Of a stretch of DNA of 64,000 nt, positions 38,851 through 60,290 are shown piece by piece; position 1 is the first letter of the stretch; every line of letters starts with the position of its first letter. The DNA lies in NCBI GenBank assembly GCA_949286705.1, contig CASEDF010000003.1:474-64473 (forward strand), given 5' to 3'. The stretch comes from an uncultured bacterium. Its GTDB lineage: Bacteria; Cyanobacteriota; Vampirovibrionia; Gastranaerophilales; Gastranaerophilaceae. The translations under genes and the position numbers were made by a program. The notes beneath the pieces are model-generated. The model did not search any database and was not told the origin of the DNA. It worked only from the letters and a program-made list of their open reading frames with translations.

Positions 38851-39123
38851 GTTACTAAGATACTAAGGCAGTAAGATACTAAGAAGTTTTTAGAGTGAGT
38901 GAAGTGATTGGCACGTGAGGCTTCGAAGGATCTCTATGCCCCCTCTCCCGTTGGGAGAGGGTAAAATTTCGACACGAGCATTTGCGAGTGGCAGAAATTC
39001 GGGTGAGGGTTTCTTACTTTCAAATCCACCTTTGAAAAATTTATTATTTGTGCTAAATGAGAAGCAGGTCGGCTTATCCGACAGTTTTATCTTAGTGCCT
39101 TACTGCCTTAGTATCTTAGTAAC
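38851..39123. mobile_element. Repeat family B, copy 3: MITE-like element with 33-bp inverted ends
   Basis: Positions 38851-38883 and 39091-39123 are inverted repeats over 33 nt with two mismatches (GTTACTAAGATACTAAGGCA at the outer end). Inside are GTGAG pentamers, the CTCTCCCGTTGGGAGAGGG palindrome, the CACGAGCATTTGCGAGTGG module and a segment at about 39006-39056 identical to the ilvC promoter region. Its right end stops one base from the stop codon of the thymidylate-kinase-like gene. No coding capacity. It covers most of the gene-free stretch 38716-39124. Confidence 0.85.
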
Positions 39124-53554: not shown

Positions 53555-53696
53555 ATTGCGGCAAATTGATTTTACATCGGGCTTTGTTTGCGGTATGATT
53601 TTGGGGTAAATAAGGGAATAAGTTTTATTTGTTATTTGAGCGAAAAATGTTCATATTATACGTATCACTTTATTCAACAACACAAAAGGACACAAA

Positions 53697-55688
53697 ATGA
53701 GCAAATATTTACTGGAAATCGGAACGGAAGAATTACCCTACAGATTTATACCGTCTGCAATAGAGCAGTTGAAAAAGGGTTTTGAAAACTTTTTGAATAC
53801 AAATAAAGTCGGGTTTGATAAAATTGACGTTTATGCAACTCCGCGGCGTCTGGCGGTTATTGTTGCAGGACTTGAGGCTAAAAGTCCGGATGAAGAAAAA
53901 ATTGTTAAAGGTCCGATTAAAAAAGTCGCTTACGACGAAAACGGTAATCTCACACGCGCCGGCGAAGGGTTTTTGAATAAAAACGGACTTAAACCCTCTG
54001 ATATTTATATCGAAAACGATTACATCCACGCCAAAATTACCGTAAAAGGCAAGTCCGTTGTTGAATTGCTGCAGGAAAACGTTCCCTCAATAGTTATGAA
54101 GCTCCAAGGCTCGCACTTTATGCGCTGGGGTTATAACGATGAAAAATTCTCCCGCCCTATTCGCTGGATTGTGTCAGTTTTGGACAGGGACGAGGTTAAA
54201 ATAAAAATTATCGATAAAGAATCGTCAATTTATTCACGCGGTCACAGGTTTGCCCAGCAAAAAGTTATGATAGGGCATCCGGATGATTACGTGGAAACCA
54301 TGCGCAATGCCTGCGTTATCGTTGACCAGAACGAAAGAAAACAACTTATTATTGAAAAAGCTAAAGCCGAAGCCGACAAACTCGGCGCAACCGTCAGATA
54401 CTCAGATGACCTGCTGGATGAGGTTACGTATATTACCGAATATCCCGTGGCAGTGGTCTGTGAGTTTGACCCGAAATATCTCGAAATCCCCGAAGAAGTT
54501 ACGGTTACCGTTATGGCGGTTCATCAAAGATATTTCGCGCTCTACAAAAACGGCAAATTGATTAATAAATTTATTACCATGACAAACTACATCGGCGATG
54601 AATTCGCAAACATAAAAGCCGGTAACGTCCGCGTAATTAAAGCAAGACTTGATGATGCGGTATTTTTCTTTACGGAAGATACCAAAAAACCGCTTGCTGA
54701 CTATGTGGAAGATTTAAAAGGCGTAACGTTTCAAAAAGGTATGGGTTCCGTCTATGACAAAACTCAAAGGATTATTACGCTTTCAAAAGACATTGCGTCA
54801 GACCTCGGCGAAACCTCGCCGACAATTGAGCGGACAGCACTTTTGTGCAAAGCTGATTTGACAACCAGCCTTGTGTTTGAGTTTACGGAACTTCAGGGCT
54901 TTATCGGCGCTGATTACGCAAGAGTTTCAAAAGAAGATGCGCGTGTCGCGGAGGGAATTAAGGAACACTACTTCCCGCTTAACTCAGAAAGCGAAACCGC
55001 AAAAGGCATTGAAGGTCAAATAGTCGGTATTGCCGATAAATTGGATACGATTTGCGCGGTGTTTGCCGACGGCAAAAAACCGACAGGCTCCTCTGACCCG
55101 CTCGGCGTAAGACGTGCTGCACTCGGCGTTATGAGAACCGTTCTTGATGCAGGTTTGAAGGTTAATATCGCAAAATATATCGATAAAGCCGTTAAATTGC
55201 TTCCCGTTCAAAAAGACTGCGCGGATGAGGTTAATGAATTTTTTGTCCAGCGTTTGATTATTATGCTTTCCGATAAATTCAAAAGGAATGTTCTGGAAGC
55301 CTGCGCGGCATCGCGTAATCCGCTTCTGGATTTGAATGATTATATTCAAAGAGTTAAAATAGTATCAGAGCTTAATTCACCCGAAATGCTCGAAAGCGCC
55401 AACAGGGTTATTCGAATTTTGAAAGAAGAAAACCCTGCGCCCGTTAATCCGGAATTGTTCAAAGAACAGGCAGAGGGCATGCTTTTTGAGGCGGTAAATT
55501 CGGTTAATGAAAATTTTAAATACGGGGCTTATCTTGACGCTTTGATTGCCATAAATCCCGTCGTAGAGAAGTTTTTTAATGATGTTCTCGTAAATGACCC
55601 TGACGAAAATGTTAAGAAAAACAGACTCGCACTTCTAACTTTGCTCAAACATAAGTACGAAGTTCTGGCGGATTTCAGCAGACTGTAA
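53697..55688 (+). CDS. glyS: Glycine-tRNA ligase beta subunit
   Basis: This 663-residue beta subunit of the heterotetrameric glycyl-tRNA synthetase has LLEIGTEELPYRFIPSAIEQL, VYATPRRLAVIV, KLQGSHFMRWGYNDEKFSRPIRWIV, the HD-like domain around ERTALLCKADLTTSLVFEFTELQGFIGADYA and SSDPLGVRRAALGVMR. AAAGGA precedes the ATG. The alpha subunit glyQ is not adjacent, so the two are encoded apart. It is slightly shorter than usual (about 690). Confidence 0.96.
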   Translation: MSKYLLEIGTEELPYRFIPSAIEQLKKGFENFLNTNKVGFDKIDVYATPRRLAVIVAGLEAKSPDEEKIVKGPIKKVAYDENGNLTRAGEGFLNKNGLKPSDIYIENDYIHAKITVKGKSVVELLQENVPSIVMKLQGSHFMRWGYNDEKFSRPIRWIVSVLDRDEVKIKIIDKESSIYSRGHRFAQQKVMIGHPDDYVETMRNACVIVDQNERKQLIIEKAKAEADKLGATVRYSDDLLDEVTYITEYPVAVVCEFDPKYLEIPEEVTVTVMAVHQRYFALYKNGKLINKFITMTNYIGDEFANIKAGNVRVIKARLDDAVFFFTEDTKKPLADYVEDLKGVTFQKGMGSVYDKTQRIITLSKDIASDLGETSPTIERTALLCKADLTTSLVFEFTELQGFIGADYARVSKEDARVAEGIKEHYFPLNSESETAKGIEGQIVGIADKLDTICAVFADGKKPTGSSDPLGVRRAALGVMRTVLDAGLKVNIAKYIDKAVKLLPVQKDCADEVNEFFVQRLIIMLSDKFKRNVLEACAASRNPLLDLNDYIQRVKIVSELNSPEMLESANRVIRILKEENPAPVNPELFKEQAEGMLFEAVNSVNENFKYGAYLDALIAINPVVEKFFNDVLVNDPDENVKKNRLALLTLLKHKYEVLADFSRL

Positions 55689-55788
55689 GCCGTTTTTGAG
55701 AAAAATATTAATTTTTGTAAACAATAGGGCAAAAACAGTAAATATTTTTTTTCAGGATACTTTAAAATAGTACAAAGGTGAGGTAGTG

Positions 55789-56094
55789 ATGTTTAACCGA
55801 TTCCAGAATTTAAAGATAGTTAAAAAATTAAAAGAAGAAATCAGCCCGAAATTACGCTGGCTGAGGTTCTCAAATAAAAATGCAGACAAAACCTCCTCTG
55901 ATTATATTCAAATGGTAAGCGGGGTTGAACTGCAGTCAATGTCTGACGCACAAAAGCTGGAAGCAATGGTCAGAGAACAGCTCAAGGCTGAATTTCCGAA
56001 TATTGAGAGCATGAAGTCTTATGAGCTTCTGGTTGATGCGGTTATGCACAACATGATGAAAAAACAGCTTCAAGCAGAAGATGATCAGCAGTAG
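55789..56094 (+). CDS. Uncharacterised protein, 101 aa
   Basis: ATG 55789 or GTG 55786 both follow AAAGGTGAGG. The product is helical and charged (MFNRFQNLKIVKKLKEEISPKLRWLRFSN..., then DAQKLEAMVREQLKAEFPNIESMKSYELLVDAVMHNMMKKQLQ). There is no membrane helix. I do not recognise the family. TAAAAT at 55763-55768 is a possible -10 and a terminator follows the stop by 18 nt, so it is a monocistronic unit. Confidence 0.75.
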   Translation: MFNRFQNLKIVKKLKEEISPKLRWLRFSNKNADKTSSDYIQMVSGVELQSMSDAQKLEAMVREQLKAEFPNIESMKSYELLVDAVMHNMMKKQLQAEDDQQ

Positions 56095-56111
56095 ATGATT
56101 ATCATATTATT

Positions 56112-56141
56112 AAAAAAGCACCCTGCGGGGTGTTTTTTTTA
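56112..56141 (+). terminator. Rho-independent terminator
   Basis: A-run, GCACCC, TGC loop, GGGTGT (with one extra G) and eight T. It closes the 101-aa gene; a family B element begins just after it. Confidence 0.88.
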
Positions 56142-56143
56142 AG

Positions 56144-56636
56144 GTTACTAAGATACTAAGGCAGTAAGATACTAAGAAGATTTTAGAGTGAGTGGTGTGA
56201 GTGGTACGTGAGGCTTTATGTCTTCCTTAGACTTCGAAGGATCTCTATGCCCCCCTCTCCCGCTGGGAGAGGGTAGAATTTCGACACGAGCATTTGCGAG
56301 TGGTAGAAATTCGGGTGAGGGGTGCCAAAGGCACGACAATACACTGAATATTGGTGTGCCTTGCATGTCATCCTGAACTGCCAAAGCGTGAGTGACGTGA
56401 GTCGAGTGAGTGGCGTGAATAACGTAGGTCGGCATTACTATGCCGACAGAAAAGTTTACTGTTACGAGTTTAGCCACCCCCACCCTAACCCTCCCCACCT
56501 TCACTGCGTTTCGGAAAAAGGGTCGCACAACTCGTACCTCGTTGGCTCCCTTTGTTCCCTAAGGGGCGAGGGAAATATAGGTCGGCTTATCCGATAGTAA
56601 ATCCTTAGTGCCTTACTGTCTTAGTATCTTAGTAAC
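56144..56636. mobile_element. Repeat family B, copy 5: 493-bp MITE-like element
   Basis: Inverted terminal repeats of 33 nt are at 56144-56176 and 56604-56636. The inside has GTGAG pentamers, the CTCTCCCGCTGGGAGAGGG palindrome, the CACGAGCATTTGCGAGTGG module, a second set with CGTGAGTGACGTGAG and CCGACAGAAAAG, and further modules not in the shorter copies. The right end overlaps the 3' end of the DUF4013 gene (stop at 56621). Any short frames inside are repeat-derived. It fills the gene-free stretch 56095-56620. Confidence 0.85.
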
Positions 56637-57373
56637 TTTTCTTTATAAATCTGTACATAGCAGTAGCTAGCAATATACTGCATTATAGTCGTCAAATAGG
56701 CGCCGAGGGCGGTGCAAATATAAGCCATAACGTCATTTCCGCGTCCGAAAATATTTACGACAGCTACAACTATAAATATCGGAATGAGTTTTATAATAAG
56801 CCACAGAACGCTCGTGAAGGTTTTGCGCAGGTATGTGAAAATTAGTCCGAAATTATACAGCCCGTCGCGTTTGTATTCTCTTGAAAATTCCGTGAAAATA
56901 AACGGTATCATCAGGCAGATTATTAAAGATATTATTCCGAATAGCGCCATTACAATTCCGGAGGCGGTTTTCGGATTTATAAAATACGTCATCCCGACTT
57001 TTAGAATAAATGCAATTATAAATAATAAAACTATATACAAAACCCACACAATCTGTACGGGCAAAGCTTTGAAAAACATCTTGAACCAGCTTTTGTCAAA
57101 TTCCGGCAAAATTCCCTCTTTTGTTTCGTCAAAAGAGTTGTGGATTATTCCGTAAATATACCCGCCGAGGTAGATGGAAATTATACCCATTACAAGCAGG
57201 GCAAGAAGCGACATAACCACATCCGTTGTCGAAAGCGCAACACGTTTGCTGATTTCGTTCAAAGGATTTGACAGCATAACAGGCACACCCGTTAACACAA
57301 AAAGCATTATGTGTTTTACAAGAATGTCATCTCCCGTGTATAATTTTTTGATTGCGTCTTTGATTCCTAACAT
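56621..57373 (-). CDS. DUF4013-like membrane protein
   Basis: ATG 57373 with AAGGAG gives 250 residues; an 11-codon extension is not supported. The protein starts LGIKDAIKKLYTGDD and has six or so hydrophobic helices (IMLFVLTGVPVML, VVMSLLALLVMGIISIYLGGYIYG, VWVLYIVLLFIIAFIL, MALFGIISLIICLMIPFIF, LWLIIKLIPIFIVVAVV, a last near the end) with a GILPEFDKSWFKMFFKAL loop, matching the DUF4013 pattern. The last residues KLLRY and the stop codon come from the terminal repeat of the family B element. Confidence 0.8.
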   Translation of the reverse strand: MLGIKDAIKKLYTGDDILVKHIMLFVLTGVPVMLSNPLNEISKRVALSTTDVVMSLLALLVMGIISIYLGGYIYGIIHNSFDETKEGILPEFDKSWFKMFFKALPVQIVWVLYIVLLFIIAFILKVGMTYFINPKTASGIVMALFGIISLIICLMIPFIFTEFSREYKRDGLYNFGLIFTYLRKTFTSVLWLIIKLIPIFIVVAVVNIFGRGNDVMAYICTALGAYLTTIMQYIASYCYVQIYKEKLLRY

Positions 57374-57454
57374 TATAAAGCTCCTTTTTTGTATTAAGCA
57401 TAACATTTTTCCCGCGGAATTGCAATAGAAAAAAGTTTATTGTAGGATTGAATT

Positions 57455-58535
57455 ATGGAAATCGAATTAAAACAGCAAATAAACAGTTTGCGTCAGCGTG
57501 TCGACAAGATAAAGGAGTGTCTTTGACCCTGCGGGGCAGGAGAAAAAATTAGCGGAACTTGAAGAAAAAATGCAGTCGCCGGACGTTTGGTCGGATAAAA
57601 ATCTTTCTTCAAAATTGGGCGGCGAAATTAAAGAAATCAAGGATAATCTTGATATGCTTAAGCGCTGGGCAGGCACGCTTGATGATGCCGAGACCGCATT
57701 TGAAATTCAAGATGCCGAATTAATATCGGAAAGTGAAAACGCACTGGCAAAAATTGCAAAAGAGGTTGACAGTTTTGAGTTAAGGCAGATGCTCTCGGGT
57801 GAATACGACGAGGTGGATGCCATTTTGACAATAAATGCAGGTGCCGGCGGAACAGACGCTCAGGATTGGGCAAGCATGCTTTTGAGAATGTATATACGTT
57901 GGGCTGAAAACCGCGGCTGGAAAGTCGAACTTCTGGACAAGCTTGACGGCGAAGAAGCCGGGATTAAATCCGCTACCATAAAAATTACCGGCAAATACGC
58001 TTTCGGCTACGCAAAAGCCGAAAAAGGCGTCCACAGGCTCGTCAGAATTTCACCGTTTAACGCTAACGGCAAACGCCAGACAAGTTTTGCGTCTTTGGAG
58101 GTTATGCCGATTATTGAAGATTACGAAAAAACAATCCACATTCCGCCCGAGGATTTGGAAATCGATACAATGCGCTCGGGAGGTGCCGGCGGTCAAAATG
58201 TTAATAAAGTAGAAACAGCCGTAAGAATTCTCCACAAACCCACGGGCATTGTCGTTAAATGCCAAGAGCAGCGCTCTCAATTGCAAAATAAAGAAAATGC
58301 CATGCAAATGCTTGCGGCAAAGCTTCTTGCAATGCGTCAGGCTGAACACGAGAAAAAACTCGCCGAAATTAAAGGCGAAAGTATGGATATTAATTTCGGT
58401 TCTCAAATCCGTTCTTACGTTTTTCACCCCTATAAGATGGTTAAAGACCACAGAACAAATTTTGAGGTCGGAAATGTCGATGCGGTTATGGACGGCGATA
58501 TCGACGGCTTTATTGAAGAATATTTGAGGAAGTAA
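57455..58535 (+). CDS. prfB: Peptide chain release factor 2, with programmed +1 frameshift
   Basis: The gene starts at ATG 57455 and reads 23 codons to CTT (57521-57523) followed by in-frame TGA (57524-57526). The AAGGAG at 57512-57517 lies 3 nt before CTT-TGA-C, the classic frameshift site by which RF2 controls its own synthesis. After shifting +1 at GAC 57525 the frame continues 336 codons to 58535, giving 359 residues. The GGQ catalytic motif ([11 protein letters not shown]) is near residue 244 and the stop-codon recognition domain precedes it. A TAGGAT box lies 6 nt upstream of the ATG; AGGA within it could also serve as ribosome site. Confidence 0.95.
57512..57527 (+). promoter_or_regulatory. 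prfB autoregulatory frameshift site
   Basis: AAGGAG, 3-nt spacer, CTT TGA C. Low RF2 slows termination at UGA and favours the slip from CUU to UUU, so RF2 is made when scarce. Confidence 0.95.
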
Positions 58536-58629
58536 GTAAATAGGTAAATAAGGGAACAAGTATTAAGTTGATATTGAAAAATTTGTTCAGATTGATTTTA
58601 GAAATAACTTATTTCACTTATTTACTTTA
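58531..58629. repeat. Short inverted-repeat element after prfB
   Basis: AAGTAAATAGGTAAATAAG (near 58536) and CTTATTTCACTTATTTACTT (near 58609) form imperfect inverted ends about 95 bp apart. The left end reaches the prfB stop codon. Confidence 0.5.
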
Positions 58630-58760
58630 GGCAAGTATGTCCCCTCACCCCTAACCCTCTCCCCCGGGGGGAGAGGGAAGTTTTTTATCAGGATTGCAGG
58701 TTGAACAAACCTACCCGACAGTAAATCCTTAGTATCTTACTGTCTTAGTATCTTAGTAAC
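58630..58760. repeat. Repeat family B, copy 6
   Basis: CCCCTCACCCCTAACCC, the CTCTCCCCCGGGGGGAGAGG palindrome, the GCAGGTTGAACAAACCT hairpin and the 33-bp right terminal module 58728-58760. No left terminal module is present. Confidence 0.8.
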
Positions 58761-58773
58761 TTTAATTAACATC

Positions 58774-58802
58774 TGGACAATTTTTAAAAAATATACTATA
58801 CT
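58774..58802 (+). promoter_or_regulatory. Promoter of the 115-aa protein gene
   Basis: TGGACA (58774-58779) and TATACT (58797-58802) with a 17-bp spacer. GAGGAAG precedes the ATG. Confidence 0.6.
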
Positions 58803-58824
58803 AATATCATTAAGAGGAAGTTTT

Positions 58825-59172
58825 ATGGCTAAAAATATTGATACTGTTCCAATAGAGGTTTGTATATTGACGGCTGATCACGATATTAAAGGGGTTGTGC
58901 ACGTTTCAAAATACACCAATACAAATCGTGAGCTGACTGATTTATTAAACGACAGAGAAAGAAGATTTCTCGCCGTAACCAATGCTGAGATTTATCCGAG
59001 AAACGCAAATCAGTCCCCGAGACGGTATAATTTTTTGGAAATTCATATGGATTACGTGCTGATGGTTCATCCGGCAACGCAGGCAGTGTTTAAAGATTCC
59101 GGCAAAACTCAGGAAGATATTGCACGTTTCAGAGATTTGAGATTGAAATTAAATCAGACAAAGCCGTTTTAG
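58825..59172 (+). CDS. Uncharacterised conserved protein, 115 aa
   Basis: This soluble protein (MAKNIDTVPIEVCILTADHDIKGVVHVSKYTN...) has a beta-rich first half, ELTDLLNDRERRFLAVTNAEIYP in the middle and IHMDYVLMVHPATQAVF near the end. The pattern suggests a small beta-barrel similar to a conserved cyanobacterial-type DUF; I cannot name it. Its stop directly abuts the next ATG, so it is co-transcribed with the hydroxyacid dehydrogenase. Confidence 0.78.
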   Translation: MAKNIDTVPIEVCILTADHDIKGVVHVSKYTNTNRELTDLLNDRERRFLAVTNAEIYPRNANQSPRRYNFLEIHMDYVLMVHPATQAVFKDSGKTQEDIARFRDLRLKLNQTKPF

Positions 59173-60087
59173 ATGAAAGCTTTATTGGTTGACAACATAA
59201 ATGATATAGCGGTTGAAATTCTCAATAATTCAGGTATTGAGGCAACTGTTTTGCCAACGTTGTCCGAGGATGATTTATGTAAAATTATCGGCGGTTTTGA
59301 TGCTGTATTATTGAGAAATTTGACGTATATTACAAAAAAGGTTATCCAAAATGCCGGAAAGCTTAAAATAATAGGCAGAGTCGGTTCCGGACTTGATAAT
59401 ATTGACCTTGCAGCCGCTGATGATGCAAAAATCCGCGTTATTAATTCTCCTGACGGCAATACAATCGCAACTTCCGAACACACAATGGCATTGATGCTTG
59501 CTTTGTCAAGAAAAATTCCTCAGGCATGTGCTTCCGCCTTTACCGGAAAATGGGACAGAGCAAGGTTTACCGGTAATGATTTGTGCGGCAAAACTATCGG
59601 TATAATCGGTTTTGGCAGAATAGGTTTTCGCGTTGCAAAGCTTTGTGAAGCTTTCGGTATGAATGTCGTTGTATATTCCAGACGTAAAATAAACGATTAC
59701 ACCTGTTTTGACAGGCTGGAAGATATTCTTCCTTTGTGTGATTATATTACTCTCCATCTGCCCAAAACTCCGGATACCGTCGGAATAATTAATTCGGATG
59801 CAATTAAGCTTATGAAGCCGGGTGTGAAAATAATTAATTGCGCGCGCGGCGGGCTTGCCGTAGAAAAAGATCTGGCATGGGGGCTTGAAAACGGTTTTAT
59901 TTCCGGCGTCGCAACGGATGTATTTGAATCCGAACCCGATATTTCGGCATCCCCGCTTTTAAAATTCCCTGATAAAGTCGTTGCTGTCCCTCACTTAGGG
60001 GCAAGTACCATTGAAACCCAGACTAAAGTCGCTGAAGAAATTGCTCGAAAAGTCGCGGATTTTTTGTCGGAGAATAAAAGATACTAA
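59173..60087 (+). CDS. D-isomer-specific 2-hydroxyacid dehydrogenase (phosphoglycerate dehydrogenase-like)
   Basis: This 304-residue enzyme has the NAD-binding IIGFGRIGFRVAKLCEAFG near residue 145, with the catalytic Arg in INCARGGLAVEKDL, the Glu in TDVFESEPD and the His in VAVPHLGASTIETQ. The N-terminal GRVGSGLDNIDLAAA resembles SerA. It lacks the ACT domains of full-length SerA, so it is a short form; 3-phosphoglycerate is likely but not proven. Its last residues KRY and stop codon lie in the terminal module of a family B repeat. Confidence 0.87.
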   Translation: MKALLVDNINDIAVEILNNSGIEATVLPTLSEDDLCKIIGGFDAVLLRNLTYITKKVIQNAGKLKIIGRVGSGLDNIDLAAADDAKIRVINSPDGNTIATSEHTMALMLALSRKIPQACASAFTGKWDRARFTGNDLCGKTIGIIGFGRIGFRVAKLCEAFGMNVVVYSRRKINDYTCFDRLEDILPLCDYITLHLPKTPDTVGIINSDAIKLMKPGVKIINCARGGLAVEKDLAWGLENGFISGVATDVFESEPDISASPLLKFPDKVVAVPHLGASTIETQTKVAEEIARKVADFLSENKRY

Positions 60088-60290
60088 GGCAGTAAGGCAA
60101 TAAGAATTTACTGTCGGTCAGAAAGTCCAACCTGCAAACCTACTATTGTCCCCTCTCTCCTTCCCCTCTCCCGCTGGGAGAGGGCAGAACTTCTTAACGA
60201 ACTTGTGAGTTTAGAAATTCGGGTGAGGGTTTCAAGTCATTCTGAGCCGTAAGACTGCGAGTGTCGTGCAAATCCAAGATACGCCCCAAC
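60079..60290. repeat. Repeat family B, copy 7
   Basis: The AGATACTAAGGCAGTAAG terminal module begins inside the 3' end of the preceding gene. It is followed by ACTGTCGG, CAACCTGCAAACCT, the CTCTCCCGCTGGGAGAGGG palindrome, TTCGGGTGAGGGT and GTCATTCTGAG. It reads as an inverted version of the right half of copy 4 or 6. There is no other feature in 60088-60315. Confidence 0.8.

Follow-up and report, generated by a model that had tools for sequence, protein, structure and literature searches.

The stretch analysed here, the window, comprises 64 kb (bases 474-64473 of contig C3) of a draft genome of 1.85 Mb in 41 contigs, whose closest named relatives are Candidatus Gastranaerophilales assemblies. 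In what follows, this genome is G000, the compared genomes carry other G-codes and the fetched loci carry L-codes; every compared genome was an assembly, not a set of reads. On its minus strand, the window contains a DUF4013 gene (56621-57373) coding for a protein of 250 aa (MLGIKDA...VQIYKEKLLRY), with a match to Pfam PF13197 (E 3.2e-7) over residues 57-205. The prfB gene has the motif CTTTGAC at 57521-57527, which we take to be its usual programmed frameshift site. A second dispersed repeat (GGTAAATAAGGGAATAAG type) was observed at 53605-53627 and 58543-58565, the latter copy starting just past the stop of prfB (58535), a gene whose end varies between relatives.

The mosaic repeat and the DUF4013 gene end

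The DUF4013 gene terminates in a mosaic repeat of 493 bp (56144-56636), at its right end. This repeat stands at the place of a TM1266-like gene and of the native DUF4013 end in the relatives G002 and G012. The right end is a 32-nt array of four octamers (56605-56636, minus strand; GTTACTAA GATACTAA GACAGTAA GGCACTAA), and an inverted partner array lies at the left end (56144-56175, plus strand). With their flanks, the two ends make up terminal inverted repeats of 36 nt with 89% complementarity, as in MITEs. Between the arrays we have found a GTAG-tagged REP-like hairpin (56424-56447, plus strand; GTAGGTCGGCATTACTATGCCGAC) and other short repeats. At least one site with a GTAG tag and a palindrome was present in 37 of 158 loci, a GTAG-REP trait of the element; the octamer array itself is no GTAG-type hairpin.

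The 16-mer GTTACTAAGATACTAA, half of the array, had eight matches in the window when up to two mismatches were allowed (0.04 expected) and 19 exact copies in the G000 genome, in which a 73-base query around the site and a query with the whole element gave 45 and 118 matches, respectively. The exact array pattern was present in 7 of 59 genomes, with none anywhere in G002 and G012. Outside the genus of the window, it was seen in a single searched genome, G051, which belongs to another family of the order and has five copies; this hints at transfer or contamination.

When the array is entered from the gene strand, a stop is met at its base 6, 14 or 22, depending on the frame. The octamer length is not divisible by 3; each unit therefore presents its TAA in the frame next to that of the unit before it, and entry in any frame meets a stop within 24 nt. 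The other strand has one open frame. Stops in three frames within 26 nt were found in 167/20000 random pieces of the window and in 1242/20000 shuffled arrays.

The original prediction held that the repeat end, read on the minus strand, encodes KLLRY and a stop. This was borne out by the minus-strand codons AAG TTA CTA AGA TAC TAA, and GTTACTAAGATACTAA spans the gene end at 56621-56636 on this strand. The last four codons and the stop are made of array bases; in the K codon, repeat sequence is confined to the third base. The further claim that the repeat supplied the last codons and the stop stood for L-R-Y and the stop (56621-56632, minus strand), as seen by comparison with 14 other orthologues from the genus, and failed for K-L, which is also found in relatives without the array. 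As K and L are native, the net gain from the repeat is L-R-Y plus the stop.

We have read by eye the tails of DUF4013 in 15 genomes of the genus, G000 included; no orthologue was found in G010, a genome that is 85% complete. The ending KLLRY occurred in only two of them, G000 and G011 (98% identical), both with the array. The 11 orthologues without a visible repeat after the gene end otherwise (KLSDTAVE in G002 and G012, KLETVE in G015, others elsewhere). In G009 the protein ends in KL and a degenerate array follows, and in G001 it ends in KLSGQNLL, inside remnants of the sequence that elsewhere follows the array. After the native KL, the repeat-bearing genomes therefore carry LRY (G000, G011), nothing (G009) or SGQNLL (G001). 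In the tree, these four orthologues came out together with a support of 93/94 and in 96% of bootstrap trees, the branch that joins them being slightly under the starred level of the tool. The comparison of sequences supported the earlier reading that the repeat made the DUF4013 C-terminus, and the repeat would have had a single origin at this site. Being outside the domain match and not conserved, the tail is probably near-neutral, and its turnover among sisters suggests little constraint.

A junction created by a repeat-caused assembly error is scarcely credible. Although G000 is a draft in many contigs with many array copies, the same junction of gene end and array is present in the separately assembled G011, and related, decayed junctions are found in G009 and G001.

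The missing neighbour and the history of the site

In G002 and G012, the gene of a 76-aa protein, a weak TM1266-like match under the curated cut-off, is located between a 102-aa gene and DUF4013. The synteny of G000 with these two genomes is kept on both sides and broken at the array. No match to the TM1266-like gene was found in G000, nor in G001, G007, G009, G010 and G011. The same query matched 10 of the 15 other genus genomes searched, and we have consequently rejected the idea that the gene moved elsewhere in G000. In G000, G001, G009 and G011, its place holds the repeat or a remnant of it. The gene is also missing from G007, whose genome has no array match, and from G010, so that its loss need not stem from the repeat and is not unique to the repeat-bearing clade.

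Two options had originally been offered for the DUF4013 end, an insertion that truncated the gene or a later adaptation. The best fit is a replacement of the native end, given that both the native codons and the neighbouring gene are missing at the repeat site; later change of the tail is also seen, between sister species. We propose, with a probability of roughly 0.8, that a dispersed mosaic repeat replaced a gene interval, cutting DUF4013 and giving it a new tail and stop. This would have taken place in the ancestor of G000, G011, G009 and G001, in the interval that separates DUF4013 from the 102-aa gene, and the TM1266-like gene and the last DUF4013 codons would have been lost along with that interval. 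The truncated gene would have gained at once a short new tail and a stop (here L-R-Y-stop), and this tail would have been altered later, as the repeat decayed. Stops in three frames would limit the damage to a few residues when the repeat crosses a stop, and such an event could thus survive selection.

The same end state might have been reached without insertion, if the TM1266-like gene had first lain between two repeat copies and had been removed by recombination or deletion involving both, the DUF4013 end being cut on that occasion. The gene is indeed missing with arrays at both edges of the gap, and G011 contains composite units of ~99 bp in tandem, indicating that copies do recombine or duplicate. 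However, the inverted orientation of the two arrays speaks for inversion rather than simple deletion, and among the 15 genus genomes searched none was seen with both the repeats and the TM1266-like gene. We consider this course of events possible, although rather doubtful.

Regarding the mobility that replacement by a dispersed repeat would require, the MITE-like inverted ends are not accompanied by a visible target-site duplication: none was found by eye at three paired elements (38851-39123, 56144-56636 and L060:2151-2604). G000 has one Y1-type transposase gene (Y1_Tnp), whose product might move the REP part of the element. Our transposase search covered the Y1_Tnp family, which was matched in the array-free G003, G013 and G015 and had no match in the array-bearing G001, G009 and G051; owing to the latter, the G000 gene ranks as no more than a candidate for a dedicated transposase. 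We favour REP-type transposition, recombination or both as the means by which the element would move. GTAG hairpins were also observed upstream of and inside this single transposase gene (L092:222-245 and 524-547, contig C2 of G000), the inner copy being read in frame.

Other genes ending in arrays

The fetched G000 loci contained 59 array copies; 28 are in prepilin genes and were set aside, and 31 were counted. Five of the 31 array ends hold the stop of a long ORF, DUF4013 being one of them. A second such end in the window (60072-60106, plus strand) terminates a 2-hydroxyacid dehydrogenase gene (59173-60087), whose product ends in VADFLSENKRY, compared with VADFLLCS in G012 and EFLAS in G002. 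Similarly, a class-III aminotransferase ends in EVTKILRQ, compared with EVLLSL (G012) and EVLGSL (G002); for both proteins, the comparison covered these two genomes. MiaB, named from its UPF0004, Radical SAM and TRAM domains, ends in array sequence in G000 (GEVTKILR), G011 (GEVTKILRH) and G009 (GEVTTILS), and in five array-free relatives it ends in GEILNK, GEII, GEVI, GEIVS and GRVNS. Together with DUF4013, these are four clear array-ended genes, which use two of the three frames, and a few genes besides DUF4013 have likewise gained array-made ends. Two further loci were set apart: at L040:2120 the stop falls on the first base of the array and the gene end is near-native, so we do not claim it as array-made, and at L039:16857 the gene has its own stop 48 nt before the array.

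The four G000 genes carry array-coded basic tails (LLRY, KRY, TKILRQ and TKILR), as would be expected if the repeat equipped several proteins with a KLLRY-like tail that is under selection as a C-terminal signal. Yet the tails vary with the frame and between sisters, both in DUF4013, as described above, and in MiaB (TKILR, TKILRH, TTILS). As the tails change in this manner, we have rejected such a signal as very improbable.

For 15 of the 31 arrays, an ORF running towards the array and no shorter than 95 codons had its stop from 8 nt before to 24 nt inside the array; among these ORFs, that at L036:11442 is doubtful. Another six arrays had an ORF stop within the 150 nt before them, and ten had none. 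The same measure applied to the window gave 254/12652 intergenic positions (~2%), and 3988/127200 when all positions were taken in both directions. As with GTAG-REPs, the location is thus intergenic and mainly 3' of coding regions (15/31 vs 254/12652). In most of these 15 cases the stop of the gene itself is preserved, and in a minority the array took over.

This crowding at gene ends would also arise if the element were retained there because its hairpins stabilise or end mRNA, the new stops being a side effect. The 15 array ends at gene stops agree with such a role, as does the folding of the element as RNA, far better than that of 100 shuffles (z -8.93), and REPs are reported (PMC3733652) to lie mainly downstream of coding regions. 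However, the element was found to contain no terminator-like site, and the number of such sites in 55700-58850, three, is that of the shuffles (mean 3.1), so that we have rejected a terminator role. The occurrence of the array is patchy among relatives (the 7 of 59 genomes given above), and selection against intragenic repeats would likewise crowd repeats at gene ends. We regard retention for an mRNA-end role as unlikely, and replacement of the native gene end by the repeat remains our preferred reading for DUF4013.

Arrays and G-tracts in prepilin-type genes

Of the 59 array copies in G000, 16 lie early in prepilin-type genes and 12 right before an AFTLAE motif. In the 16 early copies, TAT (15) or TGT (1) stands in place of the in-frame TAA. 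The LLRY frame is open in all 16 of them, against 3/31 elsewhere; the 12 copies before AFTLAE are all open in frame 0 of the opposite strand, against 21/31 elsewhere. The prepilin copies may share descent, and these counts are not of independent events. At L033:1519-1980 and at similar array pairs in G000, octamer arrays and other repeats were observed in frame between SRQDKGF and AFTLAE. Leaders with arrays are open over ~60-180 residues, and one array is read as LVPYCLSNLVS.

The prepilin-type genes were further seen to have an ATG or other start, a short stretch (often 27 nt) and then a run of 6-10 Gs, mostly G9. Such genes occur at L033:1430-2100 and at like places in L035, L042, L045, L046, L050, L057, L058, L059, L061 and L062 (G000), in L063 (G011) and in L119-L148 (12 genomes). 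G9 was found in 15/19 tracts of one set and in 20/30 of a second set, one locus being shared. The start codon was in frame with the prepilin in 2/18 tracts with a start candidate in the first set and in 7/29 in the second (five of these seven being G10). A tract that is mostly G9 leaves most prepilin genes out of frame, and G10 or G7 puts some in frame. The tract motif was present in 12 of 40 genomes; since 31 copies are in the array-free G012, the G-tract family is independent of the arrays. A 666-aa prepilin-like gene with a G10 tract was also observed in G011 between a murG-like gene and glyS (L063:5271-7586); it is absent at the corresponding G000 place (window 53555-53700).

As read from the sequences, a phase-variable pilin repertoire in the genus is possible, phase switching being a natural reading. 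We suggest, tentatively and with less than even confidence, that the array is a module acting on both sides of coding boundaries: at 3' ends it would provide an instant stop in any frame, and, cleared of stops, it would be part of very long prepilin leaders in which a tract of some nine Gs directly behind the start codon would switch expression. A literature search at the level of titles and abstract starts returned no report of repeat-built or G-tract prepilin leaders in this group. The array also points to a broader topic, namely prepilin genes that combine G-tracts with leaders built from repeats, and raw metagenome reads could put these to a direct test.

The element shares features with several known repeat systems. 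Cyanobacterial STRR sequences are tandem heptamers. The arrays resemble them in their short tandem units, dispersed between genes, and in the phylum; they differ from STRRs in being octamers, nearly always four rather than a varying number, at the ends of an element.

GTAG-tagged REPs and bacterial interspersed mosaic elements (PMC3733652, PMC2817692) are alike in their GTAG-tagged hairpins, in the mosaic of short intergenic repeats, in the presence of a Y1 transposase gene in the genome (its tie to the array being at most putative) and in termini that give a stop codon to flanking ORFs, as PMC3733652 describes. Here, unlike in GTAG-REPs, the four-octamer array that forms the element's end provides the stop, in place of a REP terminus, and this array stops three frames. 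The Coxiella elements QMITE1 and QMITE2 (PMC5896051) overlap the 3' ends of functional genes by 1-50 bp, and the C-terminus of EnhC is element-made. The DUF4013 element shares both traits, and it differs from the elements described there in having no target-site duplication seen, another sequence and another phylum, and in the missing native codons and neighbour gene. In the enterobacterial RU-1 case (PMC2759123), an amidase gene carries a repeat fused at its 3' end and has lost its normal stop, as here; that protein became ~35 residues longer, whereas the DUF4013 tail is of three residues because the array stops all frames early. Rickettsia palindromic elements (PMC10969869) are repeats that become parts of proteins, and the prepilin leaders resemble them; at DUF4013, in contrast, the array stops the frame and is not in frame inside an open ORF.

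Ending genes is thus a behaviour already known from GTAG-REPs and Coxiella MITEs, and the present case adds the repeat family with its octamer ends, and the host group. DUF4013 offers a clear and datable case in Gastranaerophilales in which an intergenic repeat has edited a conserved protein at its end, and in which an adjacent gene is absent from that very place. For annotators, the tails LLRY, KRY and TKILRQ in these genomes are a warning, as they are repeat and not conserved protein.
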